From Streptomyces spinoverrucosus (GTDB lineage Bacteria > Actinomycetota > Actinomycetes > Streptomycetales > Streptomycetaceae), in contig NZ_JADPZX010000001.1 in assembly GCF_015712165.1 (NCBI RefSeq), positions 6,212,001-6,276,000 of the forward strand: a stretch of 64,000 nucleotides of DNA, written 5' to 3'. Position 1 is the first letter of the stretch. The number at the start of each line of letters is the position of its first letter. The notes beneath the pieces were generated by a model. The model worked only from the letters and a program-made list of their open reading frames with translations, did not search any database and had not been told where the DNA came from. Shown here one piece after another: positions 12,025 through 60,617 of the stretch. Both the position numbers and the translations under genes were made by a program.

Positions 12025-12200
12025 GGCTCCGTATACCTCGACGGTGCCGCACACCGGCCGGTTGCCGGTGCACGTGAGCCGGTCACGTTTCCGTGCGGGG
12101 CAGTCCGGCTCACAGCGTGCGCTGCTCACGGTTGCGGGTCAGCGCCGGATTTGCACCGGCTTCCCCCCGTACGGGTGATGACGACGCGGCCACTCTACCC
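12025..12200 (-). promoter_or_regulatory. Cobalamin (B12) riboswitch
   Basis: On the minus strand the leader contains the conserved core GGGAAGCCGGTGCAAATCC followed by GGCGCTGACCCGCAACCGTGA (12124-12167), the hallmark of adenosylcobalamin riboswitches, and a later GCCGGACTGCC element. It lies 60-240 nt before the ATG of the toroid gene, so it controls the whole toroid-SCO2322-EcfT-EcfA-S operon, which should be repressed when cobalamin is plentiful. The outer boundaries are approximate. Confidence 0.88.
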
Positions 12201-54891: not shown

Positions 54892-55302
54892 GGCAGACGA
54901 GCCGGGCGGACGGCCGCGTGGAGGTTCTTGTGGATCTCCCCGAGGAACGTCCGGGCTCCACAGGGCAGGGTGGTGGCTAACGGCCACCCGGGGTGACCCG
55001 CGGGACAGTGCCACAGAAAGCAGACCGCCGGGGATCTCGGTCCTCGGTAAGGGTGAAACGGTGGTGTAAGAGACCACCAGTGCCCAGGGTGACCTGGGCA
55101 GCTAGGTAAACCCCACCTGGAGCAAGGTCAAAAGGAGCGCCGTAAAACGCGCTCTGCGCGGACGTTCGAGGGCTGCCCGCCCGAGTCCGCGGGTAGACCG
55201 CACGAGGCCGACGGCAACGTCGGTCCTAGATGGATGGCCGTCACTCCGGGCGCCGCGAGGCCCCGGAGCACAGAACCCGGCGTATAGCCCGACTCGTCTG
55301 CC
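54892..55302 (+). ncRNA. rnpB: RNase P RNA (type A)
   Basis: The 5' segment GGCAGACGAGCCGGGC pairs with the 3' end GCCCGACTCGTCTGCC, defining helix P1 and the gene ends. Inside are the universal elements GAGGAACGTCCGGGCTCCAC then AGGGCAGGGTG, GGTGGCTAACGGCCACCC, ACAGTGCCACAGAAA, GTAAACCCCACCTGGAGCAA, AGATGGATGGCCGTCA, and ACAGAACCCGGCGTATAG. It is the catalytic subunit that processes tRNA 5' ends. It is intact but followed after 22 bp by an IS110-family element; two extra partial copies of its 3' end lie downstream. Confidence 0.97.
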
Positions 55303-55307
55303 GCTCT

Positions 55308-55324
55308 TTATTTCCGCAGGTCAG
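55308..55324 (+). other. Insertion target, left half
   Basis: TATTTCCGCAGGTCAG immediately precedes the first IS copy and resembles the IS right end TATTTACGCGTCAG. The shared GTCAG (55320-55324, 56955-56959) is the likely crossover core. Confidence 0.6.
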
Positions 55325-55616
55325 CGAACCAGCGCACCTTTGGTGCGCGCCGGGGGCGTGGTAAATCCCGTGGCGTGCGCCGAAGGTGCTTCCGTCTGCC
55401 CTGACGTGGGGTGATGCCGGTCCGGGACGCTGGAGGGGTTCGTTCCGGCCGAAGCCGATGTCTCTGTGATGCCGGTGAGCTCGCAGGTCAGCGTGGCACT
55501 GAGGGCCGTCCACGGGAACCGTGGAGTGTTGCTGTGAGCACGTGCGTCAGAATTCCTGTTTCGCCCTGGCCCTCCCGGAACGGTGTACCGGTTGCCGGCT
55601 GGGAGGGAGCAGAGCT
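55325..55616 (+). ncRNA. Candidate bridge RNA region of IS110 element, copy 1
   Basis: This noncoding part of about 290 nt upstream of the transposase is where IS110-group elements encode the bridge RNA. It contains a strong hairpin GCGCACC-TTT-GGTGCGC (55332-55348), an 11 nt direct repeat GTGATGCCGGT (55411-55421 and 55466-55476), a 12 nt copy of the left junction CGCAGGTCAGCG (55482-55493), and GCGTCAG (55544-55550) matching the IS right end. The exact transcript ends are unknown. Confidence 0.55.
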
Positions 55617-56861
55617 GTGGACGTGCTGCACGAACGCTGCGCTGGTGTGGACATCAGCAAGAAGGACGCCAAGGTGTGCGTTCGGACGCCGACTGCGAAA
55701 CGGCGGGGGTCGTTCACCACCGAGACCACGACGTGGGGTTCGACGACGAACGCGGTCCTTGCGCTGCGGGATCACCTGCTCGCCGCCGAGGTCACCCTGG
55801 TGGTGATCGAGGCAACCAGCGACTACTGGAAGCCGTTCTACTACCTGCTGTCCGAGGACTTGGCCGTGATCCTGGTCAACGCCCGGCAGGTCAAGAACCT
55901 GCCCGGCCGCAAGACCGACGTCTCCGATGCGGCCTGGCTGGCCCAGCTCGGCGCCCACGGCCTGGTCAGGCCGTCGTTCGTGCCCGACCAGCCCGTGCGT
56001 GAACTGCGGGACCTGACCCGCGCCCGCACCCAGCTCACCCGCGAGCGCGGCCAGATCGTCCAGCGCCTGGAGAAGCTGCTGGAGGACACCGGGATCAAAC
56101 TTGCCGCGGTTGCCTCCGACATCATGGGCGTCTCCGGCCGGGCCATGCTGGAGGCTCTCGTCTCGGGCGAACGCGAACCACAGACCCTCGCGGAGCTGGC
56201 CAAACGCAAGCTCCGCAACAAGATTCCCGAACTCACCGAGGCCCTGACCGGCCGCTTCCGCGACCATCATGCCTTCCTGGTCCGGCTGCACCTGGACCAC
56301 TACGACCAGCTCACGGATGCGGTCGGGCAGCTGGATGCGCGGATCGAGGAGGCGATGGCCCCCTTTCGAGGCGCCCTCGACCTGCTCGACACCATCCCCG
56401 GGATCAACCGCGCGGTCGCCGAGGTGATCGTCGCGGAGACCGGCGGCGACATGGCCCGCTTCGCCTCCGCCCGGCACCTCGCCTCCTGGGCCGGGGTCTG
56501 CCCCGGCCACCACGAGTCCGCCGGCCGCACCAAGAACACCAAGGTCCGCCCCGGCAATCCCTACCTGAAGGGAGCACTCGGGCTCGCGGCGTTCGGCGCG
56601 GTGAGAACCAAAGACACCTACCTGCAAGCCCGTTACAAGCGGCTCACCGCCCGCCGCGGCCCGCTCAGGGCCCTGGTCGCCGTCGAGCACTCGATCATCA
56701 CCGCGATCTGGCACATGCTCACCGACCACGTCACCTACCGCGAGCTCGGCGGCGCCTACTTCACCCAGCGCGACCCCGAACGCGCCACCCGCCGCGCGAT
56801 CAACGCCCTCAACCAGCTCGGCTACACCGTCACCCTCAACCCGCTGGGAACCACAGCCTGA
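55617..56861 (+). CDS. IS110-family transposase (DEDD), copy 1
   Basis: A 414-residue recombinase from a GTG after GGGAGGGAG; an upstream in-frame GTG at 55521 is less likely because it lies in the bridge RNA region. DEDD (RuvC-like) N-terminal domain: CAGVDISKKDAKVCV (Asp12), VVIEATSDYW (Glu), NLPGRKTDVSDAAWLA (Asp pair). C-terminal Transposase_20 domain: LLDTIPGINRAVAEVIVAETGG and ASWAGVCPGHHESAGRTK then PGNPYLKGALGLAA, with the candidate nucleophile Ser301. It recombines DNA guided by a bridge RNA. Confidence 0.95.
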   Translation: MDVLHERCAGVDISKKDAKVCVRTPTAKRRGSFTTETTTWGSTTNAVLALRDHLLAAEVTLVVIEATSDYWKPFYYLLSEDLAVILVNARQVKNLPGRKTDVSDAAWLAQLGAHGLVRPSFVPDQPVRELRDLTRARTQLTRERGQIVQRLEKLLEDTGIKLAAVASDIMGVSGRAMLEALVSGEREPQTLAELAKRKLRNKIPELTEALTGRFRDHHAFLVRLHLDHYDQLTDAVGQLDARIEEAMAPFRGALDLLDTIPGINRAVAEVIVAETGGDMARFASARHLASWAGVCPGHHESAGRTKNTKVRPGNPYLKGALGLAAFGAVRTKDTYLQARYKRLTARRGPLRALVAVEHSIITAIWHMLTDHVTYRELGGAYFTQRDPERATRRAINALNQLGYTVTLNPLGTTA

Positions 56862-56959
56862 CCACCCCACGACCGCCCGGCAGCCCCGGCAGCCCCTGCG
56901 GCCACCGGACGCTCAGCCCTGCCCAAACAACCCCTGACCTGGACCTATTTACGCGTCAG

Positions 56960-57010
56960 AACCCGGCGTATAGCCCGACTCGTCTGCCGCTCTTTATTTC
57001 CGCAGGTCAG
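56960..57010 (+). repeat. Duplicated rnpB 3' end (29 nt) plus insertion flank
   Basis: After the right end of copy 1 (GTCAG) the sequence resumes in rnpB at AACCCGGCGTATAG, runs to the rnpB 3' end (56988) and through the 22 bp flank to copy 2. It is an exact copy of 55274-55324. Confidence 0.95.
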
Positions 57011-57302
57011 CGAACCAGCGCACCTTTGGTGCGCGCCGGGGGCGTGGTAAATCCCGTGGCGTGCGCCGAAGGTGCTTCCGTCTGCCCTGACGTGGGGTGA
57101 TGCCGGTCCGGGACGCTGGAGGGGTTCGTTCCGGCCGAAGCCGATGTCTCTGTGATGCCGGTGAGCTCGCAGGTCAGCGTGGCACTGAGGGCCGTCCACG
57201 GGAACCGTGGAGTGTTGCTGTGAGCACGTGCGTCAGAATTCCTGTTTCGCCCTGGCCCTCCCGGAACGGTGTACCGGTTGCCGGCTGGGAGGGAGCAGAG
57301 CT
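57011..57302 (+). ncRNA. Candidate bridge RNA region, copy 2
   Basis: Same sequence as in copy 1, with the GCGCACC hairpin and the repeated CGCAGGTCAGCG and GTGATGCCGGT segments. Confidence 0.5.
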
Positions 57303-58547
57303 GTGGACGTGCTGCACGAACGCTGCGCTGGTGTGGACATCAGCAAGAAGGACGCCAAGGTGTGCGTTCGGACGCCGACTGCGAAACGGCGGGGGTCGTT
57401 CACCACCGAGACCACGACGTGGGGTTCGACGACGAACGCGGTCCTTGCGCTGCGGGATCACCTGCTCGCCGCCGAGGTCACCCTGGTGGTGATCGAGGCA
57501 ACCAGCGACTACTGGAAGCCGTTCTACTACCTGCTGTCCGAGGACTTGGCCGTGATCCTGGTCAACGCCCGGCAGGTCAAGAACCTGCCCGGCCGCAAGA
57601 CCGACGTCTCCGATGCGGCCTGGCTGGCCCAGCTCGGCGCCCACGGCCTGGTCAGGCCGTCGTTCGTGCCCGACCAGCCCGTGCGTGAACTGCGGGACCT
57701 GACCCGCGCCCGCACCCAGCTCACCCGCGAGCGCGGCCAGATCGTCCAGCGCCTGGAGAAGCTGCTGGAGGACACCGGGATCAAACTTGCCGCGGTTGCC
57801 TCCGACATCATGGGCGTCTCCGGCCGGGCCATGCTGGAGGCTCTCGTCTCGGGCGAACGCGAACCACAGACCCTCGCGGAGCTGGCCAAACGCAAGCTCC
57901 GCAACAAGATTCCCGAACTCACCGAGGCCCTGACCGGCCGCTTCCGCGACCATCATGCCTTCCTGGTCCGGCTGCACCTGGACCACTACGACCAGCTCAC
58001 GGATGCGGTCGGGCAGCTGGATGCGCGGATCGAGGAGGCGATGGCCCCCTTTCGAGGCGCCCTCGACCTGCTCGACACCATCCCCGGGATCAACCGCGCG
58101 GTCGCCGAGGTGATCGTCGCGGAGACCGGCGGCGACATGGCCCGCTTCGCCTCCGCCCGGCACCTCGCCTCCTGGGCCGGGGTCTGCCCCGGCCACCACG
58201 AGTCCGCCGGCCGCACCAAGAACACCAAGGTCCGCCCCGGCAATCCCTACCTGAAGGGAGCACTCGGGCTCGCGGCGTTCGGCGCGGTGAGAACCAAAGA
58301 CACCTACCTGCAAGCCCGTTACAAGCGGCTCACCGCCCGCCGCGGCCCGCTCAGGGCCCTGGTCGCCGTCGAGCACTCGATCATCACCGCGATCTGGCAC
58401 ATGCTCACCGACCACGTCACCTACCGCGAGCTCGGCGGCGCCTACTTCACCCAGCGCGACCCCGAACGCGCCACCCGCCGCGCGATCAACGCCCTCAACC
58501 AGCTCGGCTACACCGTCACCCTCAACCCGCTGGGAACCACAGCCTGA
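57303..58547 (+). CDS. IS110-family transposase, copy 2
   Basis: The 414-residue product is identical to that of copy 1, with all DEDD and Ser motifs intact; start and ribosome site as in copy 1. Confidence 0.95.
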   Translation: MDVLHERCAGVDISKKDAKVCVRTPTAKRRGSFTTETTTWGSTTNAVLALRDHLLAAEVTLVVIEATSDYWKPFYYLLSEDLAVILVNARQVKNLPGRKTDVSDAAWLAQLGAHGLVRPSFVPDQPVRELRDLTRARTQLTRERGQIVQRLEKLLEDTGIKLAAVASDIMGVSGRAMLEALVSGEREPQTLAELAKRKLRNKIPELTEALTGRFRDHHAFLVRLHLDHYDQLTDAVGQLDARIEEAMAPFRGALDLLDTIPGINRAVAEVIVAETGGDMARFASARHLASWAGVCPGHHESAGRTKNTKVRPGNPYLKGALGLAAFGAVRTKDTYLQARYKRLTARRGPLRALVAVEHSIITAIWHMLTDHVTYRELGGAYFTQRDPERATRRAINALNQLGYTVTLNPLGTTA

Positions 58548-58645
58548 CCACCCCACGACCGCCCGGCAGCCCCGGCAGCCCCTGCGGCCACCGGACGCTC
58601 AGCCCTGCCCAAACAACCCCTGACCTGGACCTATTTACGCGTCAG

Positions 58646-58740
58646 ATGGATGGCCGTCACTCCGGGCGCCGCGAGGCCCCGGAGCACAGAACCCGGCGTA
58701 TAGCCCGACTCGTCTGCCGCTCTTTATTTCCGCAGGTCAG
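58646..58740 (+). repeat. Duplicated rnpB 3' end (73 nt) plus insertion flank
   Basis: After copy 2 the sequence resumes in rnpB at ATGGATGGCCGTCACTCC, 44 nt further upstream than in the previous junction, and continues through the rnpB 3' end (58718) and the 22 bp flank to copy 3. It copies 55230-55324. Confidence 0.95.
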
Positions 58741-59032
58741 CGAACCAGCGCACCTTTGGTGCGCGCCGGGGGCGTGGTAAATCCCGTGGCGTGCGCCGAA
58801 GGTGCTTCCGTCTGCCCTGACGTGGGGTGATGCCGGTCCGGGACGCTGGAGGGGTTCGTTCCGGCCGAAGCCGATGTCTCTGTGATGCCGGTGAGCTCGC
58901 AGGTCAGCGTGGCACTGAGGGCCGTCCACGGGAACCGTGGAGTGTTGCTGTGAGCACGTGCGTCAGAATTCCTGTTTCGCCCTGGCCCTCCCGGAACGGT
59001 GTACCGGTTGCCGGCTGGGAGGGAGCAGAGCT
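58741..59032 (+). ncRNA. Candidate bridge RNA region, copy 3
   Basis: Appears identical to the corresponding regions of copies 1 and 2. Confidence 0.5.
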
Positions 59033-60277
59033 GTGGACGTGCTGCACGAACGCTGCGCTGGTGTGGACATCAGCAAGAAGGACGCCAAGGTGTGCGTTCG
59101 CACGCCGACTGCGAAACGGCGGGGGTCGTTCACCACCGAGACCACGACGTGGGGTTCGACGACGAACGCGGTCCTTGCGCTGCGGGATCACCTGCTCGCC
59201 GCCGAGGTCACCCTGGTGGTGATCGAGGCAACCAGCGACTACTGGAAACCGTTCTACTACCTGCTGTCCGAGGACTTGGCCGTGATCCTGGTCAACGCCC
59301 GGCAGGTCAAGAACCTGCCCGGCCGCAAGACCGACGTCTCCGATGCGGCCTGGCTGGCCCAGCTCGGCGCCCACGGCCTGGTCAGGCCGTCGTTCGTGCC
59401 CGACCAGCCCGTGCGTGAACTGCGGGACCTGACCCGCGCCCGCACCCAGCTCACCCGCGAGCGCGGCCAGATCGTCCAGCGCCTGGAGAAGCTGCTGGAG
59501 GACACCGGGATCAAACTTGCCGCGGTTGCCTCCGACATCATGGGCGTCTCCGGCCGGGCCATGCTGGAGGCTCTCGTCTCGGGCGAACGCGAACCACAGA
59601 CCCTCGCGGAGCTGGCCAAACGCAAGCTCCGCAACAAGATTCCCGAACTCACCGAGGCCCTGACCGGCCGCTCCCGCGACCATCATGCCTTCCTGGTCCG
59701 GCTGCACCTGGACCACTACGACCAGCTCACGGATGCGGTCGGGCAGCTGGATGCGCGGATCGAGGAGGCGATGGCCCCCTTTCGAGGCGCCCTCGACCTG
59801 CTCGACACCATCCCCGGGATCAACCGCGCGGTCGCCGAGGTGATCATCGCGGAGACCGGCGGCGACATGGCCCGCTTCGCCTCCGCCCGGCACCTCGCCT
59901 CCTGGGCCGGGGTCTGCCCCGGCCACCACAAGTCCGCCGGCCGCACCAAGAACACCAAGGTCCGCCCCGGCAATCCCTACCTGAAGGGAGCACTCGGGCT
60001 CGCGGCGTTCGGCGCGGTGAGAACCAAAGACACCTACCTGCAAGCCCGTTACAAGCGGCTCACCGCCCGCCGCGGCCCGCTCAGGGCCCTGGTCGCCGTC
60101 GAGCACTCGATCATCACCGCGATCTGGCACATGCTCACCGACCACGTCACCTACCGCGAGCTCGGCGGCGCCTACTTCACCCAGCGCGACCCCGAACGCG
60201 CCACCCGCCGCGCGATCAACGCCCTCAACCAGCTCGGCTACACCGTCACCCTCAACCCGCTGGGAACCACAGCCTGA
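59033..60277 (+). CDS. IS110-family transposase, copy 3 (diverged)
   Basis: A 414-residue product with three substitutions against copies 1 and 2: Phe214Ser (GRFRDHH to GRSRDHH), Val272Ile (EVIVAE to EVIIAE) and Glu300Lys (GHHESAG to GHHKSAG), the last adjacent to the candidate catalytic Ser301. Two further base changes are silent. The frame is otherwise intact. Confidence 0.95.
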   Translation: MDVLHERCAGVDISKKDAKVCVRTPTAKRRGSFTTETTTWGSTTNAVLALRDHLLAAEVTLVVIEATSDYWKPFYYLLSEDLAVILVNARQVKNLPGRKTDVSDAAWLAQLGAHGLVRPSFVPDQPVRELRDLTRARTQLTRERGQIVQRLEKLLEDTGIKLAAVASDIMGVSGRAMLEALVSGEREPQTLAELAKRKLRNKIPELTEALTGRSRDHHAFLVRLHLDHYDQLTDAVGQLDARIEEAMAPFRGALDLLDTIPGINRAVAEVIIAETGGDMARFASARHLASWAGVCPGHHKSAGRTKNTKVRPGNPYLKGALGLAAFGAVRTKDTYLQARYKRLTARRGPLRALVAVEHSIITAIWHMLTDHVTYRELGGAYFTQRDPERATRRAINALNQLGYTVTLNPLGTTA

Positions 60278-60384
60278 CCACCCCACGACCGCCCGGCAGC
60301 CCCGGCAGCCCCGGCAGCCCCTGCGGCCACCGGACGCTCAGCCCTGCCCAAACAACCCCTGACCTGGACCTATTTACGCGTCAG

Positions 60385-60617
60385 AGCCACGCGGGTGTGA
60401 AGGTGGTTGGAAGTCGGCGTGCAGCGGCACGGGAAGCCACCGGACGAGCTCGAAAGTATCGTCCGAGGTGTCCCCATCCGGAGCGGCGTGATGGGGCTGA
60501 TCGTGTTCGACCAGACGCCGTTCGTTGCCTTCCAGGGCGGCGCCGGCGCACAGTGACCGTGACGCAACACGTGCCGACGCGACTGGCTCTGCGGAGACAC
60601 CATGTTGTAATGGTCAA
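60385..60617. promoter_or_regulatory. 233 bp between the IS array and the CGNR gene
   Basis: No gene supported; a short open frame on the minus strand lacks features. The 3' part contains an inverted repeat CCATGTTGT (60600-60608) and ACAACATGG (60634-60642) that spans the start of the CGNR gene and could be an operator. Confidence 0.45.

Follow-up and report, generated by a model that had tools for sequence, protein, structure and literature searches.

The insertion sequence (IS) IS621, as presented in the sections of PMC11208160 devoted to it, encodes a recombinase with PF01548 and PF02371 domains, carries a long leader with target and donor guides, and inserts at a short shared core. An IS110-family element with the same three properties, its guides being predicted, is found in three copies behind rnpB, the RNase P RNA gene, in a 64,000-nt stretch of the Streptomyces spinoverrucosus genome (GCF_015712165.1, NZ_JADPZX010000001.1, forward-strand positions 6,212,001 to 6,276,000; here called the window). 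The core of IS621 is given as CT in those sections, while the element in the window has a common stretch, GTCAG, within which the array junctions indicate AG as the probable core. It also resembles the seekRNA elements ISEc21 and ISEc11, for which the relevant parts of PMC11187229 describe site-specific insertion and an IS110-type guide RNA from the upstream leader; the predicted leader in the window likewise precedes its gene, an arrangement of the IS110 type. According to the same parts, ISEc21 and ISEc11 form a circle from their joined ends, and end joining needs flanking target bases. In contrast, the right end of the element in the window appears to have been joined to nontarget host sequence. 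An array with captured host flank is found in the window and is not described for IS621 in the sections cited.

Head-to-tail copies are also described, in parts of the IS30 literature, for IS30 tandem dimers. In one-sided transposition of other IS families, one end is fixed and the other variable, as in this array. Both systems use a different chemistry, and the window has variable pieces of a host gene between its copies. Integrative elements at the 3′ ends of genes likewise leave partial 3′ copies of RNA genes beside or away from the intact gene. Additional rnpB copies have been predicted in mycobacteria, as stated in part of PMC9569102. No published report of an IS110/rnpB arrangement such as this one was found in the open-access literature. 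The arrangement is unusual; the element itself is an ordinary IS110. Our reading of the locus, to which we give slightly better than an even chance, is that the recombinase joined its right-end core to core-like AGA sites in rnpB and thereby built the array stepwise.

Array, element ends and target

Read 5′ to 3′, intact rnpB is followed by three head-to-tail copies of the element (Table 1). Sequence and coordinates were rechecked, and the array is real as sequence; together with the Rfam RF00010 match, this bears out an earlier note on this DNA, which had described an intact rnpB, three IS copies and duplicates of the rnpB tail. Compared leftward from the left end of the IS, copies 1 and 2 agree exactly over 54 nt and copies 1 and 3 over 97 nt, lengths that include the spacer and the bases common to both partners. 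The tail lengths of 29 and 73 nt given previously did not hold as exact figures because they hinge on the chosen rnpB end (the Rfam model stops at 55300). Only IS copies separate the rnpB fragments in the window. The left neighbor of the fragments is the IS right end; the right neighbor, the spacer, resembles the arm of an integrative element.

The ends of the element were fixed by copies elsewhere in the genome, which comprises 8.85 Mb in 5 contigs and carries ten IS copies, seven of them isolated; the array sits within the 7.83-Mb contig. At all seven isolated copies, CAGGTCAG precedes CGAACC at the left and ACGCGTCAG is followed by AG at the right, giving ends of ...GTCAG/CGAACC...ACGCGTCAG/AG (slashes mark boundaries) and a length of about 1,635 bp, with GTCAG common to the target and the right end. 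The occupied sites read at these seven copies reveal a specific target without flanking duplication beyond the short common core (...CAGGTCAG/IS/...GTCAG/AG), and the longer CGCAGGTCAG stands left of the IS at five of the seven. rnpB is absent from the left end of all seven, so the outcome that would have undone the earlier note, a left end naturally containing rnpB, did not occur. Because the isolated copies share these ends without rnpB, the spacer is ordinary rnpB flank ending in the target CGCAGGTCAG/AG. Empty CGCAGGTCAGAG follows full rnpB and a similar spacer in four related genomes (G121, G086, G310 and G268); in a fifth, G316, the empty site follows an rnpB tail fragment and not full rnpB. 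The 10-mer CAGGTCAGAG occurs 25 times in the genome, versus 4 times for the reversed control, and the site beside rnpB is therefore one possible target among many. The target is not rnpB itself. The element occupies one of its usual sites immediately downstream, and it was this proximity that led to duplication of the rnpB tail; the earlier picture of an array that recombines with rnpB was overstated.

Domain scans of copies 1 and 3 (copy 2 is identical to copy 1) placed the DEDD recombinase domain PF01548 and PF02371 above their cut-offs, at 97.4 and 72.1 bits, and NF033542, the IS110 RNA-guided transposase, at 264 bits. The codon taken as the GTG start reads ATG in three relatives (L061, L065 and L078). 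By its domains, target rule and leader, the element is an ordinary member of IS110.

The leader upstream of the recombinase gene folds better than all of 200 shuffled sequences (z = −3.04) and is predicted to hold a bridge RNA. According to the sections of PMC11208160 on pairing, the left guides of the bridge RNA base-pair, core included, with the bottom strands of the target and the donor; on this logic, CGCAGGTCAG and GTGCGTCAG in the leader were assigned as putative left guides. The predicted target guide is identical to the left half of the target, and the predicted donor guide, which begins 60 nt after it, matches the right end ACGCGTCAG at 7 of 9 bases. Both right guides were placed by eye, CACTGA with one mismatch. 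In 16 related leaders, two of them from one genome (drawn from L057 to L080, L167 and L189, with up to 3 mismatches in the left-end motif), the target guide GCAGGTCAG is present without mismatch 13 times and GTGCGTCAG 10 times, in corresponding positions; leaders without an exact guide, 6 of the 16 for GTGCGTCAG, have at most 2 mismatches. In one relative, L070, guide and target alike read GCTGGTCAG.

A second IS110-type element, with a 403-amino-acid frame, is present in two copies in the same genome (L001 and L002; G000 C1:3289001 and C3:26986), one of them some 3 kb away from one of the isolated copies of the element studied here.

Right-end junctions and growth of the array

Both internal junctions use the same right-end core of the IS and different AGA sites in rnpB, and the IS breakpoint at both is the natural end seen at isolated copies. 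The right end and rnpB share 3 to 4 nt at each junction, so that the bases CAGA and AGA cannot be assigned to one origin; the earlier claim that the right end was joined twice to an AGA in rnpB stands, while its assignment of these bases to one side does not. Over 410 rnpB positions, 7 match at least the last 3 bases of the right end and 3 match at least the last 4; both junctions are among them. The 97-nt duplicate is identical to the strain's own rnpB, whereas in two other genomes, G033 and G236, attachment fragments with the same start share 86% and 78% identity with the rnpB of the genome in question. The 97-nt piece therefore looks freshly copied from the rnpB in the window. Since the core is constant at both junctions and the AGA site is not, we take the recombinase's right-end core as the most likely agent, and random duplication is disfavored because the element's natural end would have to be struck twice.

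In the mechanism that we propose, a bridge-RNA-guided IS110 element would first have followed its usual target rule and entered CGCAGGTCAG/AG immediately downstream of rnpB. On at least two subsequent occasions, the right-end core (GTCAG/A) would have been joined to an AGA within rnpB, 50 or 94 bp upstream of the IS left end, instead of to its own left end. Each joining would yield a unit of rnpB tail, spacer and IS. An oversized circle might then re-enter the chromosome via homologous recombination in the resident IS, or the unit might arise by unequal exchange between sister chromosomes; either route would give the observed order with rnpB intact. Cutting by the recombinase, the circle or sister-exchange step, and the order of events are the parts of this scheme that we infer.

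Right junctions with a base other than G are seen outside the array as well. Such a base follows GTCAGA at 3 of 20 isolated right junctions (7 in this genome and 13 exact matches from 10 others), and therefore GTCAGA/A and GTCAGA/T are not forbidden. A public genome collection, from which the window's own genome was possibly left out, returned five stretches with the same right end followed by a non-G base. Three came from two Streptomyces genomes (L187 and L190 from S. luteolifulvus, L189 from sp. Ag109_O5-1), and the stretches returned for these three contained no rnpB match. The other two were 17-mers without an IS in other phyla and were set aside.

Several observations weigh against the reading that the recombinase made these joinings. 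When rnpB AG sites were scored with a matrix built from eight of the element's own targets, site 55272 ranked 3rd of 30 and is weakly target-like, while site 55228 ranked 18th of 30 and is not target-like; 55% of the 3,185 AG sites in the window score as well as 55228. Neither rnpB site matches the right-donor side when compared by eye. To within the ambiguous 3 to 4 nt, both fragments start where other elements have attachment boundaries. Guide and target do not always agree in relatives, since L068 has the target GCTGGTCAG and the guide GCAGGTCAG. A search of 392 genomes, with two candidates scored per genome, revealed no intermediate state of the array, and none of the IS loci examined in other species lay directly behind rnpB. 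The evidence comprises one assembly, one array and two events. Because one rnpB site is weakly target-like and the other is not, the choice of partner looks largely unguided. The earlier proposal that the recombinase joined pseudo-targets in rnpB thus holds in part: it fits the fixed right-end core and, as to target likeness, 55272 only. In favor of recombinase action stand the conservation of the predicted target and right-end guides in relatives, with the matching guide and target of L070, and sections of PMC11208160, which report that off-target insertions of IS621 mostly keep the core dinucleotide and that deletions and inversions between insertion sites occur, though rarely.

Copies 1 and 2 are identical, and copy 3 differs from copy 1 by 5 substitutions and a 9-bp gain, as had been noted before. 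The gain is an extra unit of a short repeat whose number varies between copies. Four of the 5 substitutions and the 9 bp occur in other copies in the genome (936C with 1109A in L010, 511A in L011 and L014, and the 9 bp in L011 and L012); 1193A is private to copy 3. All four combinations of positions 511 and 936/1109 are present among the genome copies, which therefore exchange sequence or mutate repeatedly, and the order of the array cannot be read from the variants. The three array copies are not a closed family. Identity of copies 1 and 2 is expected if one of them is the latest duplicate, yet a copy on contig C3 (L015) is identical to both. We infer that gene exchange between copies was the source of the copy 3 variants. 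Growth in at least two steps, as proposed earlier, is retained in the sense of two different joinings; copy 3 is not simply an older sister, its variants being a mosaic of other genome copies.

Table 1. Features of the rnpB-IS110 array in the window (positions are those of the window)
Feature	Positions	Strand	Basis or remark
rnpB, RNase P RNA class A, intact	54898..55300	+	Rfam RF00010, 299.6 bits, E 4.9e-97, full model 1-367
Rest of rnpB tail plus flank, ending in IS target left half CGCAGGTCAG	55301..55324	+	Empty site in relatives; isolated copies
IS110-family copy 1	55325..56959	+	Ends set by isolated copies; same sequence as copy 2 and L015
Predicted target-binding part of bridge RNA	55482..55502	+	CGCAGGTCAG at 55482-55491 as left guide; CACTGA at 55497-55502 as possible right guide
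Predicted donor-binding part of bridge RNA	55542..55564	+	GTGCGTCAG at 55542-55550 as left guide; GTTTCGC at 55558-55564 as possible right guide
Recombinase/transposase gene, copy 1, stop included, GTG start inferred	55617..56861	+	PF01548, PF02371, NF033542
Duplicate of 55271-55324 (rnpB tail plus spacer)	56957..57010	+	First 4 bases, CAGA, common to IS right end
IS110-family copy 2; recombinase gene to 58547	57011..58645	+	
Duplicate of 55228-55324 (rnpB tail plus spacer)	58644..58740	+	First 3 bases, AGA, common to IS right end
IS110-family copy 3, 5 substitutions, +9 bp; recombinase gene to 60277	58741..60384	+	
Right flank AGCCACG...	60385..60493	+	From 60394, similar to a stretch about 120 bp past the rnpB tail fragment of G185 (L126)

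The right flank of copy 3 aligns with the L126 sequence at 74% identity over 101 bp. A third right-end rearrangement was considered here, as about 120 bp fewer are present than in L126, possibly through a deletion adjoining the IS right end. The flank sequence AGAGCCACG also resembles the arm start AGAGGCCATG, so that a third rearrangement is only one possible reading. Five neighboring open reading frames were scanned for domains, giving MerR, Uma2, CGNR zinc finger and SpoIIE matches and one frame without a match; no integrase gene was among them. Elsewhere in the window, positions 12087 to 12164 on the minus strand match a cobalamin riboswitch (37.7 bits).

Competing explanations and the rnpB attachment site

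The closest rival is microhomology-mediated duplication, in which the DNA breaks, for whatever reason, at the IS right end or close to it and is repaired via AGA or CAGA in the rnpB of the sister chromosome, with no core-specific joining by the recombinase. The 3 to 4 nt of identity at both junctions would suit it, as would an rnpB site with no resemblance to the target. However, two independent events must then share a right breakpoint within a few bases of the natural end, which is unlikely unless the recombinase makes the break. We regard this explanation as unlikely overall. The favored conclusion is that the recombinase acts at the right end and specifies its partner poorly; a close rival is that a break there was repaired through microhomology.

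Alternatively, the IS might have inserted into rnpB itself, at both AGA sites, on one chromosome of a multinucleoid hypha, after which recombination between IS copies restored rnpB. Each internal right junction does resemble the right side of an insertion at that point, the rank of 55272 fits, and the four combinations at 511 and 936/1109 are as expected from copies that exchange sequence. The poor target likeness of 55228 argues against this sequence of events, which would moreover require, on two occasions, an intermediate that is presumably lethal and one more crossover inside the IS. We consider it improbable.

Quite improbable, in our estimate, is that the rnpB fragments are pre-existing attachment-site scars or older tandem repeats that IS copies entered separately. 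The 3′ end of rnpB, which the earlier note had not recognized in this role, is a frequent attachment site for integrative elements in other Streptomyces genomes (L086, L091, L092, L125, L126 and L171 to L185), in which partial copies of the rnpB tail, about 27 to 106 nt long, lie downstream or elsewhere. In a survey of rnpB fragments, 80 were used of 113 genomes picked by eye as having two matches (G192 was left out), and at least 70 partial rnpB matches were present in the 80 genomes so chosen. Among the matches listed, the start of the short fragment in the window recurs in 9 of 70 and that of the long fragment in 2 of 70, as counted by eye. Six fragments (L125, L126, L172, L175, L178 and L179) are followed by an arm similar to the one that holds the IS target in the window, with that target empty, and separate insertions would account for two IS lineages. 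One fragment, L169, contains GTCAGACCCCGG and comes close to a start after GTCAGA. Yet none of the 30 fragments from relatives whose left side was examined starts right after GTCAGA, the long fragment does not differ from the host rnpB, in contrast to the fragments of G033 and G236, and two repeat junctions would still have to land exactly at the IS core. For these reasons (no GTCAGA starts among the 30, the exact host match, and the need for the IS to abut both boundaries), the scar explanation is rated low. The coincidence of the fragment starts with attachment boundaries is, we argue, probably mostly chance, though it is the chief complication for our reading.

In two of the attachment loci (L183 and L184), a tyrosine integrase gene (PF00589) ends 80 to 90 bp before the rnpB fragment, whereas only IS copies lie between the fragments in the window. 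The rnpB attachment piece gave one weak 29-bp match in phage records and, in plasmid records, one short fragment and two long rnpB matches. The arms of one such element family (L171, L172, L174 to L176 and L094) contain repeats of the form GCAGGTCA or GCAGGTCAG, which resemble the IS110 target, and the arms of L094 and L171 also have a GTGCGTCAG, the exact sequence of the predicted donor guide; the IS may therefore tend to land in attachment arms. In G217, a relative of the IS in inverse orientation is separated by 8 bp from an rnpB tail fragment and lies away from that genome's rnpB (L166), an independent landing beside an rnpB 3′ end. In G192, two full rnpB copies stand in opposite orientation about 3.3 kb apart (L131).

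An assembly artefact, with one or two copies in reality, is very improbable: near-identical 1.6-kb repeats are hard to assemble and the array is known from the assembly alone, but the two spacers are of unequal length, copy 3 can be told apart by its variants, and a contig of 7.83 Mb surrounds the array.

Significance of the array

The array is an odd, informative accident rather than new machinery. It suggests how an IS can lengthen an array without finding its target again, and the rnpB 3′ attachment hot spot of Streptomyces may have wider use. IS110 recombinases underlie bridge editing, and natural records of recombinase errors would be useful in that context; an array recording two right-end errors offers a fixed, testable substrate with one core, two partners and an essential RNA gene kept intact. 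As a tentative and somewhat doubtful generalization, a bridge-RNA recombinase may join its own right end to nearly unguided partners with only the core in common, capturing and amplifying neighboring host DNA one IS at a time via oversized circles or sister exchanges. If this is true, the RNA-guided recombinases used for editing would have, in such nearly unguided joining, an off-target mode that occurs in nature and is heritable.

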